Positions 7,020 through 27,659 of a stretch of DNA of 64,000 nt are shown here, piece after piece (within the stretch, counting starts at the first letter, position 1; every line of letters begins with the position of its first letter). Position numbers and translations under genes: made by a program. The DNA comes from Alistipes sp. ZOR0009 (GTDB lineage: Bacteria > Bacteroidota > Bacteroidia > Bacteroidales > ZOR0009): assembly GCF_000798815.1 (NCBI RefSeq), contig NZ_JTLD01000021.1, forward strand, positions 1 through 64,000, in the 5' to 3' direction. Under the pieces are notes generated by a model. That model was not told the origin of the DNA and did no database searches. It saw nothing but the letters and a program-made list of their open reading frames with translations.

Positions 7020-7086
7020 CATTTAGCGGTTACACCATCATTTACGTTAGGAGTGGAATTTTCGATACTACATTAATACGAATAGT

Positions 7087-8724
7087 ATGAATAAGATAGT
7101 TAAGTTGGCTGTGTTGCTTATCCCTGCGCTGCTTTGGCAGAGTAACCTGTTGGGATGTACCGTTATTGTTGCGGGGAAAAAGGCAACGGTAGATGGTAGC
7201 GTACTGAATTCGCATACCGACTGTGGCGCCGATTGCCGTATTCGGGTTGTTCCGGGTAAAAAATATCCGAAGGGAGTGCTTGCACCCGTGTATTACGGTA
7301 TCCAGCGTGTAGATCTTCCTTTTGGAAACGATGGCGAGGTATTGGGGTATATTCCTCAGGTGGAGCAAACCTACTCCTACTTTCGCTCTGCCTACTCGCA
7401 CATGAATCAGCACCAGCTTTGCATTGGCGAAAGCACCTTAAGCCAAAGGGACGAGCTGCAGGTGGCCAAAGGCGAGGGAAAGCAGATAATGACGGTGGAG
7501 CAGGCGATGATTTTTGCGCTGGAAAGGTGTAAGAAGGCCGAAGATGCGCTTGCCCTTATTACTTCGTTGATGGAGAAGTATGGGTTTCTTCCATCGTGCG
7601 GACCCGAAAGCGAATGCCTAACCATTGCCGATCCCGACAAGGTTTGGATTCTGGAGCTCTTTAGCGTAGGCAAAGGATGGACGCCCGAAAGCGGAAAGCC
7701 CGGGGTGATATGGGCTGCCCAGCGTTTAGCCGACGAAGATGTTGCCATAATTCCCAACTGGAGCATCATAAAGGAGATTGATCTATCGCAGCCAGATAGG
7801 TTTAAGGCCTCGTCGAACTACATGAGCGAGGCGATTGAGCGTGGTTGGTACTCTCCTAAAAGCGGAAAACCCTTCATTTGGCAAAAGGCGTATGCCCCCA
7901 TCGCCAGAGAGTGGGCAACCAACCGATTTTGGCTTTTTGCGAACACCTTTAAGCCCAGCGAAGCTAAAATCCCAAGCCGAAAAACTACCGATGCATACGG
8001 TATGCTCGATCAGTACCCCCAGTTTGTCGAAGATCTAGACCTGTATCCAACATCCTTTACGCCAGATAAGAAGGTTACCGTAAGGGATATTATGGATTTT
8101 CAGCGCTCTACCTTTACTGGAACCATCTACGATAAGGAAAACGATCCGTCGTGGTACTATATGGGCAAGGATGGTAATGCGGTGAAAAGCAAGCTGGCAA
8201 CTCCATTCCCCACAAGGGAAATGCAGCGACTTTTTAAGACAACTCGCCGCCGTGCAGTTGCTCGTCCCGATGGCGAATATGGCATGGTTGCCCAGCTAAG
8301 AGGATGGCTGCCCAACGAGGTAGGTGGTGTATACTGGGTTTTCCAAGATAATGCCTACACGTCTCCCTATCTTCCAATATTTGCAGGGGTAACGGCTGTT
8401 CCGGCTAGCTATGCAACCTATAATCCCAATAAGGTGGAGGATAACTCTGCACGTTGGGCCATAGATATGGTAGATAACCTGCTATACCTAAACTGGCAGG
8501 ATGGGAAGCAGGATTTGGCGGCTGCGCGCAGGCCTATGGAGGATCGTTTCTTTGAGAGAAACGCTCAGGTGGAGAAGGAGTATGTGGACTTGAAGGCGAA
8601 AAATCCTAAAAAAGCGCAGGAGCTGCTAAATGCTCATTGCGCCGAGTGTGCCTCGCAGATTATGGATACCTACAAGGAGTTACGCAATACGCTTTTGGTA
8701 AAGTACTCGAATAATAAGAGGTAG
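7087..8724 (+). CDS. C69-family dipeptidase
   Basis: This 545-aa exported dipeptidase belongs to the PepD/C69 N-terminal nucleophile family. A signal peptide of about 23 residues precedes C24 in GCTVIVAGKKAT, followed by DGSVLNSHTD. The Cys right after the leader and the downstream DGS are the family's catalytic signature, so C24 is the probable nucleophile after cleavage. The leader also looks like a lipobox (LLGC), but the C69 context explains the Cys better. Lengths near 540 are normal in Bacteroidota. It probably cleaves dipeptides in the periplasm, complementing the proline peptidase upstream. Confidence 0.9.
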   Translation: MNKIVKLAVLLIPALLWQSNLLGCTVIVAGKKATVDGSVLNSHTDCGADCRIRVVPGKKYPKGVLAPVYYGIQRVDLPFGNDGEVLGYIPQVEQTYSYFRSAYSHMNQHQLCIGESTLSQRDELQVAKGEGKQIMTVEQAMIFALERCKKAEDALALITSLMEKYGFLPSCGPESECLTIADPDKVWILELFSVGKGWTPESGKPGVIWAAQRLADEDVAIIPNWSIIKEIDLSQPDRFKASSNYMSEAIERGWYSPKSGKPFIWQKAYAPIAREWATNRFWLFANTFKPSEAKIPSRKTTDAYGMLDQYPQFVEDLDLYPTSFTPDKKVTVRDIMDFQRSTFTGTIYDKENDPSWYYMGKDGNAVKSKLATPFPTREMQRLFKTTRRRAVARPDGEYGMVAQLRGWLPNEVGGVYWVFQDNAYTSPYLPIFAGVTAVPASYATYNPNKVEDNSARWAIDMVDNLLYLNWQDGKQDLAAARRPMEDRFFERNAQVEKEYVDLKAKNPKKAQELLNAHCAECASQIMDTYKELRNTLLVKYSNNKR

Positions 8725-22468: not shown

Positions 22469-23914
22469 ATGAGAATTAAATTACTACTAATGAGCTTTGC
22501 GCTTTTAATCTTGGCCTCCTGCTCGAAGGACGAGGTGAAAAGTGCTGAAAAGAGCATTCTTGATTTTTCTTTTTCGTTAAACGGAAAAACAATTAAAGGT
22601 GCTATTGATAACGCTAAAATGGCTGTTTCGCTAACCGTGCCTTACGGAACGGACGTTACAGCAATTGCGCCTGCTGTGGTAACATCACCGCTATCTACCG
22701 TGCTTCCTGCAAGTGGTGCTGCGCAAGATTTTACAAAGCCTGTAACCTATACTGTAACGGCCGAGGATGGATCTAAGCAGGCCTACACAGTTACCATTAC
22801 CGTCGATAAAAATACGGAGTGTCTTATTAAGGAGTTTAAGTTTACGCAGTTTTCTCCTAATGTGGTTGCCGTAATCGATCAGAACACCAAAACAATTTCT
22901 GCAAAAGTTCCTTTTGGTACAGATCTTACTGCTCTTACTCCATTTATTCAGATTTCTAGTGATGCTACCATTTCTCCAGAGGCCAACAAGCCAACCAACT
23001 TTACTTCGCCTGTAGAGTACACGGTTACCTCTCAAAATGGAGAAACAAGCAAGTATACCGTTACGGTAGTTACTGACGAAGATCCTTCTGTTCTACGAAT
23101 TATTACACTTAACAAGACATCGTTTATCGTTGGTCTTGGAGATATCGTAATTACTGGTCGTAACCTAAAAAAGGAGGGAACTACTTCGTATGTTCTTTTT
23201 GGTACTACCAAGGTGAAAGGCGTAGTAAACGAAGCGGGTACCGAGATTACAGCAGGAATTCCAACTACGCTAACTCCTGGAAAGGTTATGGTAAAGGTTC
23301 AGGTTGGGATAAACAACAACTCTAACGAAATGGAGGTAACCATCATGGAGAACACTTTCCCCAAGCCTACAATATCTAGCGTTACGCCAAGTGAAGTTGT
23401 GTCTGGAGATATTATCGAGATTACTGGCTCAAACTTTATGAAATCAGGTAATACCGTACGGTTGGCAACATCTGGCTATCCTGCTCTTAACTATGTACTA
23501 ACACCTGTAGAGGAGAGCGAAACACGCTTACGTTTTAGCACAGCAGGTATAAGTAAGCCTGCAAGCTTCGACTTATACGTAAAATCGAACGGAAAGGAAG
23601 AAAAGTATACAGCAAAGGTAAAGCTTACCTTAAAACCTGCTGTAATTGCAAGCGTATCGCCTCTAAAAGTAAAGGCTGGAGAAACGATCACCATCACTGG
23701 CGAAAACTTTAACAAGGAGACGTTGAGCATGGTGCTTATAGATAACGGCGCGCATGCTATTACCTATGTTGATGACAAGCATGTTACCATTAAGGCTAGT
23801 ACCGATTTAAAGCCAGGTAAATATCTTTTAGAGATTAAGATAGGAGCAACAGCACCATCAGGCGGTCCTACCTTCAAGGTTATCTATTCTACCCAGGTAG
23901 AAATAATAGCCTAA
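22469..23914 (+). CDS. Lipoprotein with DUF5018-like repeats and IPT/TIG domains
   Basis: This 481-aa lipoprotein has lipid attachment at C18. Residues about 28-115 and 117-203 form two homologous modules: each has a VPYGTDVTAIAP or VPFGTDLTALTP segment and ends in a strand of the form YTVTAEDGSKQAYTVTITV. This resembles DUF5018. Residues about 205-480 form three immunoglobulin-like IPT/TIG domains, recognisable from ITGRNLKKEG, ITGSNFMKSG and ITGENFNKET. Such stacked domains usually form an extended stalk or a binding face at the cell surface. It is the last gene of the import locus and a terminator follows at 24000. Confidence 0.88.
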   Translation: MRIKLLLMSFALLILASCSKDEVKSAEKSILDFSFSLNGKTIKGAIDNAKMAVSLTVPYGTDVTAIAPAVVTSPLSTVLPASGAAQDFTKPVTYTVTAEDGSKQAYTVTITVDKNTECLIKEFKFTQFSPNVVAVIDQNTKTISAKVPFGTDLTALTPFIQISSDATISPEANKPTNFTSPVEYTVTSQNGETSKYTVTVVTDEDPSVLRIITLNKTSFIVGLGDIVITGRNLKKEGTTSYVLFGTTKVKGVVNEAGTEITAGIPTTLTPGKVMVKVQVGINNNSNEMEVTIMENTFPKPTISSVTPSEVVSGDIIEITGSNFMKSGNTVRLATSGYPALNYVLTPVEESETRLRFSTAGISKPASFDLYVKSNGKEEKYTAKVKLTLKPAVIASVSPLKVKAGETITITGENFNKETLSMVLIDNGAHAITYVDDKHVTIKASTDLKPGKYLLEIKIGATAPSGGPTFKVIYSTQVEIIA

Positions 23915-23999
23915 GGGTATTATTTAACGAGTTCATCCCTGTTTAGCATATTGTTATATCTATAATTAAAAGTCTTCTTAAACATATACCAAAAGAAAC

Positions 24000-24030
24000 G
24001 AGGTTGTCTATTTTTAGGCAACCTCTTTCT
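24000..24030 (+). terminator. Terminator of the import locus
   Basis: A 10-bp stem GAGGTTGTCT / AGGCAACCTC (one G-U pair) closes on ATTTTT and is followed by TTTCTTTATT. It lies about 85 bases after the last lipoprotein gene. Confidence 0.8.
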
Positions 24031-24451
24031 TTATTAGAGCCTGTATCTGAACGAATGCTGCCACCTGCGTTATATCTTATTTGTTGCTTACGGCCTTTGC
24101 TAAGGCCTACAATTAGAGGAATCGTTCTTGTTTTTGAATGTATATATATGATTTTATTTGGATTTTACACATTGAAATGTGGCGTATTTATTTTAGAATT
24201 ATTGTGAATTATCTTTCCTGTTAATAATCAAATCTACATCTAAAATACGGCTGGTTCCGTTCGTTTTAAAGGTCTGATATGGTGCTTTAAATTAACATAT
24301 GTTTAATAAAGCGCCCTTGTTCTGTGGCGATTGACCGTCTGTGGAATTTTTGCCTTGTTTTTTGGGAGTAAATTTGCTAAATATCAGAAAAAGTGAATTG
24401 TATGTATTAGTATATGTTAACATATGTCTTTTTATTGACCTTGAGATGGTT

Positions 24452-24766
24452 CATTCTTTATAGGTTTTGTTCCATTTGATATAAAGGATGAAGCATTCTT
24501 TACAGGTTTTGTTCCATCCTTTATAAAGAATGCTCCATTCTTTACAGGTTTTGTCGCATTTTTTGGATGTTTTACTCTATTTTGCTAATGTGCATACCTG
24601 TTTTTGGGCTATTTTGGAGCATTTGGTATAAGAAATGCTTCATCCTTTACACCGAATGCTCCATCCTAGATCTAGGATGAAGCATCTAGTATATAATTTA
24701 CTTCATAATTTATACGATTTGTAGTATAGTATACATGTTTTTTTACATCTACGTTCTTGTTTCGGG
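24452..24766. repeat. Degenerate 21-bp-period direct-repeat array, about 15 units
   Basis: CAT recurs in exact 21-base register at 24452, 24473, 24494, 24515, 24536, 24557, 24620, 24641, 24662, 24683, 24704 and 24746. The units at 24578, 24599 and 24725 are in register but diverged. Many units continue CATTCTTTACAGGTTTTG or CATCCTTTA and end in GCTC, GAAG or GTTC. Units 1, 3 and 5 are nearly identical, giving a secondary 42-bp period. A 21-base period equals two DNA turns, so the CAT sites all face one side of the helix. There are no constant-length unique spacers, so it is not a CRISPR. Confidence 0.8.
24662..24679. repeat. Perfect 18-bp palindrome inside the array
   Basis: CATCCTAGATCTAGGATG is its own reverse complement. 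It starts exactly at one of the 21-bp register points, so the following unit begins in inverted sense. It could be a dimeric protein-binding site. Confidence 0.75.
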
Positions 24767-25313
24767 CGATGGAGTTACAAACCGTAATAATTAGGGCAAA
24801 CTCTGCAACGTTTTTGGTAAAAAAAAATCAATAAACGGTAAATTTATTTATAATATATGGCGATATTTTGTTTAAATATTTATTTTAAAATAAACTGAAG
24901 TAGGTTTAATTAAATGTTTGCTAATATTTAGTTGAGAATAACGCAGTCTGAAAGGCCCTTTGCCCGTTAAGCGTTGCCTTGCTAAGCTTTCGGAAATGCG
25001 CTTATTGCGGCTGCCGTATAGGATAAGTTTTTAAAACGTAAGCCGATAGCTAGGATTTCTATTTAACAGGTAGAGGAATGTTTGAAGCCGATGTAACGAG
25101 AGGCAAATCTGCCGTTGTAAGGTTGTGGTCGTAGGTTATAAGCTACCTGACGATATGCGCTATTTTAGTGGGTGTTGTGCTGCATTTTATATGTAGTTGC
25201 TTACAGTTGTTTGCACATCGTTCTTAGGTTGTTTTATAGAAGAAGAGCTAATGTTTGGGATTGTTTGGTATATTTATGCTGCTACTCATGTTGTCAAATA
25301 TAACCGAACATTT

Positions 25314-27659
25314 ATGGAAAATGAAAAGGATAGGCTGTCAATTCTGAAGTATCGGCTTGAGATTTTGGAACAGAAGCATGCCGCCTATGGGAAAGAAATT
25401 GCTGAGCTGAGGGAGGCTCTTGGCAGTGCAATGAGGCAGGAGCCTTGCGGCTCTCAGCAGAACGCGCGCGTCTCATCTGTAACAAGGGATACACCTGATT
25501 GCGTAGGCGTGGAGGCGAATGCTGTATCCTATAGGGATTCCTCTACTAAACAACGAGCCACCTCGTCTTTTCCCCGAGTTCGCATAAATATTGAGCGGTT
25601 TATAGGCGAAAATCTCATCAGTAAGTTAGGTATTGCCATTCTAATTATCGGAGTTGCCATTGGGGTAAAATATGCGTTCGATTACCAGCTTATTAGTCCC
25701 GTTGTGCGGGTTGTGCTTGGGTATCTTGTAGGAGTTGCTTTAACGGGGTTGGCTTTCTGGCTAAAAAAGAAGTATGCCGGATTTAGCGCGGTGCTGCATA
25801 GCGGTGCTATGGCCATAATGTACTTTATAACGTTTACCGCCTGTAGCTTTTACGGTATCTTTTCTCAGGAGGTGGCATTCTGCTTAATGGTTTTCTTTAC
25901 GATCTTTACGGTTCTTTCGGCCATTTCATACAACTTGCAGGTGGTTGCTCTTATCGGAATGGTTGGGGCCTATGCCGTTCCGTTTTTATTGAGCGACGGT
26001 TCTGGAAATCCCGCTGTGATGTTTGGCTATATGGCGATCATAAATGCGGGGATTTTATTCCTTGCATTCAAGCGTAGCTGGAGGCTGCTTAACTATGCCT
26101 CTTTTCTGCTAACTTGGATTATTTACGGGCTCTGGTTGGGGTTTGGATACCAGTACGATCGGCATTTTATGCTTGGGTGTACTTTTGCTTCCATCTTCTT
26201 TGTAATATTCTATTTTACGTTTTTGGCCTATCGGTTTATTCAAAATGATAGGTTTGATGTTTGGTCTGTTTCCTTGCTGTTGGCAAACTCCTTCTTGTTT
26301 TATGGGTTTGGATATGCTTTGCTAGATAGTAGCAATAGGGGAGTGCTCTATCTTGGTGCGTTTACGTTGGTTAATGCGGCCATTCACTTTGTGGTGGGTG
26401 CTATTCTTTATTTCCGTAAGCTGGCAGATCGCAGCCTTTTTTACCTTGTGATGGGGTTAGTTTTGGTATTTATCACGATAGCCATTCCTGTGCAGCTTTC
26501 AGGCTCGTGGGTAACGTTGCTGTGGGCTGGCGAGGCTGCTCTTTTATTTTGGATAGGGCGTAAGCTCAAGGTCGGATACTACGAGCTGCTTTCGTATGTG
26601 CTTATGGTCATGTCTTTCCTGAGCCTCATTTTCGATTGGCAGGTTTACTTTTATGAAACAGAAGCAGCGATGGCCACGAAGCGTTTTGTACCGTTATTTA
26701 ATGTGGGATTTTTATCTTCTTCGGTATACGTCGCGCTATTTGGATTTATAGGGTATGTGGCTTTTAAGAATAGAAGTGCGCTGTTGCAGGATAGGTATAG
26801 CCAGCTTGTTAAGCTGATGGGATGGGGGATTGCTGCCATCTTTTTATTAGCTGCTTACTATTCGGTTCGGCTGGAAATTGCGTTGTACTGGCAGCAGGAG
26901 TTTAATGTTCGGATGGCGTATCTGATGAAATTGCCTGTGCATTTGCATGCAACTCAATTTGGAACTGATTGCGTTGATTTTAGGATAGTCTATATCTCTC
27001 TTTATTCGATGCTATTTCTATCTCTCATTTCCATCGCCAATATGCGATGGGCAAAGAACCCTGCTTTTGCAAAGTTAAATTTGGGTGTTAGCCTGGCTGC
27101 ATTACTTATATTCTTGATACATGCCCTTCTCCATATTAGCAATCTTCGCGATTCATATCAGGCACAGCAGGTGGTGTTTGCAGGAAGTGCTCCTTTGATG
27201 AATTTGGGGATTAGGTATGTTGCTTTCCTTTTTGTATTGCTACTCTTAGGTGTTTCCTACTACACTATCCGGAAAGTCCTTATAAAAGAGGAGTTTTATG
27301 GCATATTTACCATTATTGCTCATGTTACCACTTTGTGGATTGGCAGTAGCGAGCTAATTCATTGGTTGTATATTTTAGATTTTAGCAATGAGTATCGATT
27401 TGGATTGAGCATTTTATGGGGATTATACGCATTGCTGCTTATAGTCTTGGGCATTTGGCAAAAACGGAAGTATTTGCGTGTGGCCTCAATGATTTTGCTT
27501 GGCGTTACGTTGGTAAAACTCTTCTTTTACGATCTTCTACTGCTCGACTCTTTGTCTAAAACGCTTGTCTTAATTTGTTTGGGAGTTATATTGCTCGCCG
27601 TATCTTTCCTTTACAACAAATACAAAAACGTAATCTTTGAGGATGATGGGCAGTCGTGA
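25314..27659 (+). CDS. DUF2339-family polytopic membrane protein
   Basis: This protein of about 781 aa begins with a coiled coil (MENEKDRLSILKYRLEILEQKHAAYGKEIAELREALGS is reached from the start at 25314), followed by a linker and then many membrane segments up to the C-terminus, probably more than 20. The block ENLISKLGIAILIIGVAIGVKYAFDYQLISP is the hallmark of DUF2339 proteins, whose role is not established. A start at 25197 is possible but would add 39 hydrophobic residues before the usual coiled coil. It stands alone after the long non-coding stretch. Confidence 0.88.
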   Translation: MENEKDRLSILKYRLEILEQKHAAYGKEIAELREALGSAMRQEPCGSQQNARVSSVTRDTPDCVGVEANAVSYRDSSTKQRATSSFPRVRINIERFIGENLISKLGIAILIIGVAIGVKYAFDYQLISPVVRVVLGYLVGVALTGLAFWLKKKYAGFSAVLHSGAMAIMYFITFTACSFYGIFSQEVAFCLMVFFTIFTVLSAISYNLQVVALIGMVGAYAVPFLLSDGSGNPAVMFGYMAIINAGILFLAFKRSWRLLNYASFLLTWIIYGLWLGFGYQYDRHFMLGCTFASIFFVIFYFTFLAYRFIQNDRFDVWSVSLLLANSFLFYGFGYALLDSSNRGVLYLGAFTLVNAAIHFVVGAILYFRKLADRSLFYLVMGLVLVFITIAIPVQLSGSWVTLLWAGEAALLFWIGRKLKVGYYELLSYVLMVMSFLSLIFDWQVYFYETEAAMATKRFVPLFNVGFLSSSVYVALFGFIGYVAFKNRSALLQDRYSQLVKLMGWGIAAIFLLAAYYSVRLEIALYWQQEFNVRMAYLMKLPVHLHATQFGTDCVDFRIVYISLYSMLFLSLISIANMRWAKNPAFAKLNLGVSLAALLIFLIHALLHISNLRDSYQAQQVVFAGSAPLMNLGIRYVAFLFVLLLLGVSYYTIRKVLIKEEFYGIFTIIAHVTTLWIGSSELIHWLYILDFSNEYRFGLSILWGLYALLLIVLGIWQKRKYLRVASMILLGVTLVKLFFYDLLLLDSLSKTLVLICLGVILLAVSFLYNKYKNVIFEDDGQS

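Follow-up and report, generated by a model that had tools for sequence, protein, structure and literature searches.

Type III toxin-antitoxin systems of the ToxIN type contain repeats of roughly 34-44 nt. The array that concerns us here lies at 24452-24766 of the window, a stretch of 64,000 nucleotides from Alistipes sp. ZOR0009 (contig NZ_JTLD01000021.1), and belongs to a class whose members, like the tandem repeats of those systems, often precede a gene for a small protein. It departs from them in repeat length (21 bp, with a 42-bp superperiod), in the fold of the linked protein (a helical domain plus an Fn3 domain, matching no toxin or defence model) and in having many arrays that lack a gene. 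Plasmid parC/ParR loci, the 20-bp repeats of the pSK41 type and the 22-bp iterons of the R6K type are recognised by sequence and adjoin a motor or replication initiator. Their repeats, like ours, are spaced about two helical turns apart beside a small gene, but they hold one conserved binding word per unit, whereas here a CAT framework is confined to one subfamily and the words vary across most loci. Furthermore, no Rep initiator or segregation motor adjoins the window array, whose neighbours are SusCD-type genes and a DUF2339 gene, and tblastn with a single member of the linked family found no match in plasmid and phage collections. CRISPR arrays have unique spacers between their repeats, in contrast to the window array, whose units are contiguous, head-to-tail, at 21 bp.

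Small dispersed repeats are reportedly defined by shared sequence, whereas the present arrays are defined by their period and their words are unrelated. An extract of PMC2884548 attributes such dispersed repeats to Elhai et al. and gives 30-37 bp as the length of REP/BIME units in E. coli; these units resemble ours in being intergenic, palindromic and clustered, but have a conserved sequence and a greater length. The nearest likeness is to minisatellites and VNTRs, whose units are arranged head to tail between genes and are gained and lost: the window array shares the tandem layout, and a member of its class beside clpB shares the change in copy number. VNTR loci of Flavobacterium psychrophilum are mostly intergenic, with units of 4-9 bp, in passages of PMC4501049; in our case, by comparison, a step of about 21 bp recurs at unrelated sequences and is enriched upstream of one protein family. 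The window array has the approximately 21-bp period and the non-coding, intergenic position of the arrays that accompany this family, but no family gene lies within 1.5 kb of it. The original prediction knew of no named element of this form, and full-text searching of the open literature likewise yielded none.

The 21-bp array of the window

A 21-bp array over 24452-24766, claimed at the outset from the letters of the sequence, is real by three measures. The trinucleotide CAT occupies an exact 21-base register at 12 of the 15 unit starts counted from 24452, against a maximum of 5 when these 315 bases were given 2000 first-order shuffles and scanned in all 21 phases. Autocorrelation at lag 21, the check that had been proposed, gives an identity of 0.473; 2000 dinucleotide shuffles average 0.298 (sd 0.024), and not one attains the observed value. 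TRF detects the array independently. The five strongest lags between 1 and 109 are 42, 63, 21, 84 and 105, and the array carries a 42-bp superperiod.

The proposed extent of about 15 units held in part: the DNA is periodic at 24452-24560 and approximately 24620-24724, whereas 24561-24620 and 24700-24766, taken alone, are aperiodic. A left block of six units with a strong 42-bp superperiod (24452-24577) shows identities of 0.82 at lag 42 and 0.53 at lag 21 over 24452-24560; the latter is reached by none of 2000 shuffles, and TRF scores the block at 143 with a period of 42. There follow two unit lengths (24578-24619) in which the repeat is unrecognisable, CAT being missing from both unit starts, and the register is retained; the lag-21 identity of 0.36 over 24561-24620 is reached by 748 of 2000 shuffles. 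The right block (24620-24724) comprises five units, among them the palindromic unit CATCCTAGATCTAGGATG, and contains the inverted repeats I1, I3, I10 and I13; the lag-21 identity over 24620-24766 is 0.48, again reached by 0 of 2000 shuffles. The remaining tail (24725-24766) holds one in-register CAT and is aperiodic alone by the lag-21 test, the value for 24700-24766 being reached by 303 of 2000 shuffles. Many units, that palindromic one included, are quasi-palindromes, and many read CAT-12-WTG plus three nucleotides, so that the same words are present in both orientations.

No ORF of at least 60 aa lies within 24452-24766, and the flanking genes are those originally named: an import-type locus on the left, with genes for SusC (with STN domain), a SusD-like protein, Peptidase_Mx1, DUF4302 and DUF5018/TIG proteins, and a DUF2339 gene on the right. 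The STN domain is compatible with the sigma regulation originally suggested for the import locus. Synteny with two congeners starts only at about 27745, at a purine-nucleoside-phosphorylase-like gene; the DUF2339 gene was not found in either, and the locus has no counterpart there.

A second array in the window, at 1-103, has a period of 41 by TRF (97% matches) and a lag-41 identity of 0.90. Since 41 is 2 x 20.5, this array may belong to the same class as that at 24452-24766. It is truncated by the contig start, the window opening at base 1 of the contig, and may itself have broken the assembly there.

A fixed period with free words

DNA searching of the window's own genome and 59 others revealed one clear relative of the window array, in the congener G002 (E 2.9e-14), together with weak relatives in G001 and elsewhere in its own genome. 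At other sites, both congeners have arrays that keep this register and use related words. The pattern WTG-3-CAT at 21 bp occurs 38, 24 and 26 times in the three congeners versus 5, 2 and 7 times for the reversed control, and the matches mark 14 array loci, including that of the window, each with its own words (the array at L204, under the lag-21 cut, is counted among the 14). Nine of these loci encode homologous proteins of 207-209 aa, the gene lying 100-500 bp downstream of the array. The window array has no such partner: profile searching of all six frames of the window gave zero matches to the family and no gene remnant, making this array an orphan of the class. Each of the four other gene-less arrays has its closest match in a gene-linked array from its own genome, and the flanks of the two are not shared; the window array, by comparison, finds its best array matches in other genomes. 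Because this word-sharing set was picked by means of the CAT/TG pattern of the window array, its internal resemblance is partly due to selection.

Arrays grow or shrink in place. Beside clpB, G001 carries about 19 units and G002 a single 21-bp unit (19/21 identical) at the matching place, with none in G000; the ClpB proteins of G001 and G002 are 96% identical. At this orthologous site, copies have been gained or lost. Another G001 array, adjacent to ruvB, is missing from both congeners.

Across the wider order, 24 arrays were found in 800 kb of five family-bearing Bacteroidales genomes and none in 400 kb of five genomes without a family match (G017, G453, G061, G023 and G005). Of the 24, G001 accounts for 13 in 400 kb, which are of the 21/42/63 type and lie beside ruvB, clpB and other genes, and G004, G459, G710 and G610 for 1, 1, 7 and 2 in 100 kb each. 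Single-copy genomes outside the order yielded 0 arrays in 300 kb (G092 and G185) and 3 in 100 kb (G225); arrays are thus otherwise rare in such genomes, and possession of the gene need not lead to spread across the genome. A sample of 80 named Bacteroidota loci (1.30 Mb) contained one lag-21 array, with identity 0.63; these loci were kept out of the family-negative controls, the family status of their genomes being unchecked. Not one of the 28 sampled arrays examined adjoins a family gene, and those of G001 and G710 often lie beside unrelated genes; the gene therefore leaves most arrays in these two genomes unexplained. A few of the 28 adjoin two other small protein families. One of these is a second multi-copy family (TGHAKN...NF motif) beside 21/42-bp arrays of G001 (L266, 470-1213; L272, 13579-14472). 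The other consists of homologous proteins of 128-133 aa, encoded just downstream of arrays in G459 (L364, 10677-11078) and G710 (L370, 4640-5026); they have no Pfam or NCBIfam assignment, and on visual comparison their ends look similar to the helical domain of the Fn3 proteins.

At most loci, the arrays consist of unrelated words while the period is held at 20-22 bp, and similarity scores between randomly sampled arrays are mostly low. Exceptions are found in the genus's CAT subfamily and in a few pairs, L260/L263 for example. Two paralogous modules of G004 retain 94% identity over 434 bp of leader and 82% over 88 bp of trailer, and match in the array only in patches. The periods found (20, about 20.3-20.5, 21 and about 21.7) are all near two helical turns, so the remark on helical phasing that accompanied the first description of the array stands, and they fit turns of the helix better than codons.

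This bears on the notion that the arrays are coding heptads, 21 bp being seven codons, and represent short repeat proteins or their remains. An open frame does run through many arrays, in some cases continuing into a larger ORF, and a minus-strand frame of several resembles a heptad peptide. However, a stop-free frame occurs in 23 of 53 arrays where permutation of the 21 columns predicts 22.9, 20-bp and 41-bp periods exist, and the best frame of the window array has four stops, which renders a coding origin hardly credible.

Tandem repeats immediately upstream of a small gene, with palindromic units that could fold, invite comparison with a repeat RNA module resembling type III toxin-antitoxin systems, in which the array transcript would restrain the downstream protein. 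We consider this very improbable. Mismatches compatible with wobble pairing show no coding-strand excess (G-U 231, A-C 257), contrary to what strand-specific RNA hairpins would leave; the region 23800-25400 gave eight Rfam matches to E 1, all under the gathering score; no ToxN-type endoribonuclease gene was found in the window and no ToxN-like or defence model matches the family; and dozens of arrays are gene-less. Selected curvature was rejected as well, the mean over 50 arrays being 0.120 versus 0.111 in period-matched permutations (Wilcoxon p 0.80) with a self-compiled wedge table. The window array itself has a high curvature of 0.23 (p 0.02) and is one of four arrays with p below 0.1, about the number expected from 50 tests.

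The helical-Fn3 family and the arrays upstream of it

The linked proteins are about 208 aa in length and, in the predicted structure (pLDDT 86.5), combine an N-terminal helical domain with a C-terminal Fn3 domain. None of the nine discovery proteins reaches a Pfam or NCBIfam model at its cut-off; the distant member L212 passes Pfam fn3, the only Pfam model to do so. The 50 Foldseek matches listed are only Fn3 domains, save for a few multi-domain chains that contain such domains. Modelled alone, the helical domain attains a pLDDT of 93 and matches nothing in the PDB or BFVD at E<=0.001. PHROGs (phage) and PADLOC (defence) profiles gave no match for nine family members. Profile searches located the family in 7 of 60 relatives. 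Within the order it is present in 21 of 393 genomes, frequently with at least seven copies each, scoring being limited to seven candidates per genome, and within the phylum in 12 of 395, some of the latter through matches to the Fn3 part only.

Net charge has a median of +2 for the whole proteins and is 0 for the helical domain, with two members at -8 and -9; given this near-neutral charge, the protein sequences do not indicate direct binding to DNA. The most acidic members (L224 and L233, both of G041) lie beside arrays with a period of 20 bp, not 21 bp.

Two loci of the family have unusual surroundings. At L205 (6001-8999, G002 contig C7), a tyrosine recombinase of the phage-integrase family adjoins a helical-Fn3 gene, and the genes downstream of this pair each end in a 78-bp repeat (7066-7143 and 7920-7997); the region looks like an integron with cassette sites. 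At L256 (G000 contig C71, approximately 1423-1723), a helical-Fn3 gene is reduced to roughly its final 57 codons, which abut another copy of this 78-bp repeat, as though the gene had been interrupted by a cassette.

Genes of this family have an array upstream far more often than control DNA does. In the discovery set, 24 of 29 copies showed one; leaving aside the copies that had come to light through their array, the figure is 15 of 20. A fresh test drew on 58 of 59 family rows from 14 genomes unused before, the omitted row being the second piece of one copy, and scored as an array any identity of at least 0.6 at lag 21 or 42 within 1.5 kb upstream. Four copies with less than 250 nt upstream (L313, L314, L350 and L352) were dropped, two of which show periodic DNA, one of 21 bp and one of 20 bp. 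An upstream array is present in 42 of the 54 copies left versus 14 of 260 control windows (Fisher p 3.5e-29), the controls being consecutive 1.5-kb windows from 20 stretches of the array-rich G001, and 21 is the best lag within 13-31 in 41 copies. The 12 copies lacking an upstream array come mostly from G489 (1/5 positive) and G695 (3/7 positive); three copies of these two genomes (L353, L355 and L334), and likewise L213, have a downstream array instead. Outside the order, all eight full-length copies, from seven genomes, have an upstream array that beats 200 of 200 shuffles, with 21 the best period of 13-31 throughout (jointly with 28 in L240).

A common promoter ahead of the gene was sought in 29 copies, and the best -33/-7-like sites were no better than those of shuffles. 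A comparison of the G001 peptide-deformylase locus for insertion of a module turned up only paralogues of 47-49% identity.

The arrays could be operators, with a sequence-specific protein, perhaps the family protein itself, binding each unit as a dimer and controlling the downstream gene, and with the orphans acting as further or titration sites. In line with this proposal, the dyad symmetry of the units exceeds, at p<=0.02, what period-matched shuffles give for 19 of 26 gene-linked and four of four gene-less arrays, with p 0.03 for the window array; so, too, is the affinity of the four gene-less arrays, differently flanked, to gene-linked arrays of their own genomes. Against it stand the randomly sampled arrays, only 7 of 19 of which reach p<=0.02 for symmetry, the lack of common words at most loci, the choice of the word-sharing set by a pattern derived from the window array, whose own best matches lie in other genomes, and the near-neutral proteins. 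That most arrays of some genomes lie away from the gene further limits any simple operator story, and we judge it unlikely. The original prediction had offered two alternatives, an array for a repeated DNA-binding protein or a decayed minisatellite. The first, in its simple form, is made less likely by words that differ at a fixed period and by a linked family that is close to neutral, while the second is supported by the contrast at clpB of about 19 units with one.

What could set a step of two helical turns

Collectively, we regard the window array as a partly decayed orphan, a gene-less member of a class that occurs across the phylum and is linked to a protein family. As to what maintains the class, we favour, with somewhat less than even confidence, an intergenic two-turn class whose step is that of a nucleoprotein assembly. 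New arrays would form as a local seed is duplicated again and again, and the duplication step would be set by the geometry of the DNA instead of its sequence. Most simply, a protein or complex that touches the DNA every two helical turns might make, tolerate or use this step; the linked family could encode or recruit it, or it could be a host factor on which the family depends. An array in front of an Fn3-type gene would then probably serve as an upstream control or loading region, and the window copy would be an orphaned, partly decayed array of a subfamily found in all three congeners.

A more specific proposal, to which we give slightly less credence, is that of a phylum-wide, two-part module, in which the helical-Fn3 family is accompanied by an array whose period of two helical turns is inherited and whose sequence is free, the cell making or maintaining arrays by means of a geometric ruler and without recognising a word. 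In some genomes, arrays would have spread from such modules to dozens of intergenic sites, and that of the window would be a spread or left-behind copy.

With near-neutral proteins, no promoter signal and gene-less arrays, plain slippage stays the main rival. It would make the arrays ordinary, functionless minisatellites that slippage creates and erases, with the 21-bp bias stemming from host replication and the link to the gene from hitch-hiking on long, loosely constrained intergenic DNA. The quick gain and loss at clpB and ruvB would follow naturally from this account, as would the unrelated words, the lack of a coding, strand-biased hairpin or selected-curvature signal, and a window array without a gene partner. 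It is harder to reconcile with the eight of eight array-bearing copies outside the order, two of whose seven genomes have none in the 300 kb sampled, or with the excess upstream of the family (42/54) over control windows (14/260), and other periods are not likewise raised. On balance, we hold slippage alone to be doubtful.

No mechanism known to us builds or keeps tandem repeats according to the length of their step and regardless of their sequence. If the link between the arrays and the helical-Fn3 family is causal, as the reading of a nucleoprotein step would have it, these genomes contain tandem repeats that are built or kept in just this way. A family to which neither Pfam nor NCBIfam assigns a function would gain a testable role, and the link would also account for one cause of broken assemblies and rapidly changing intergenic DNA in these genomes. 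If, instead, the arrays reflect a mere minisatellite habit, they would offer a clean natural system for learning why slippage prefers exactly two helical turns.
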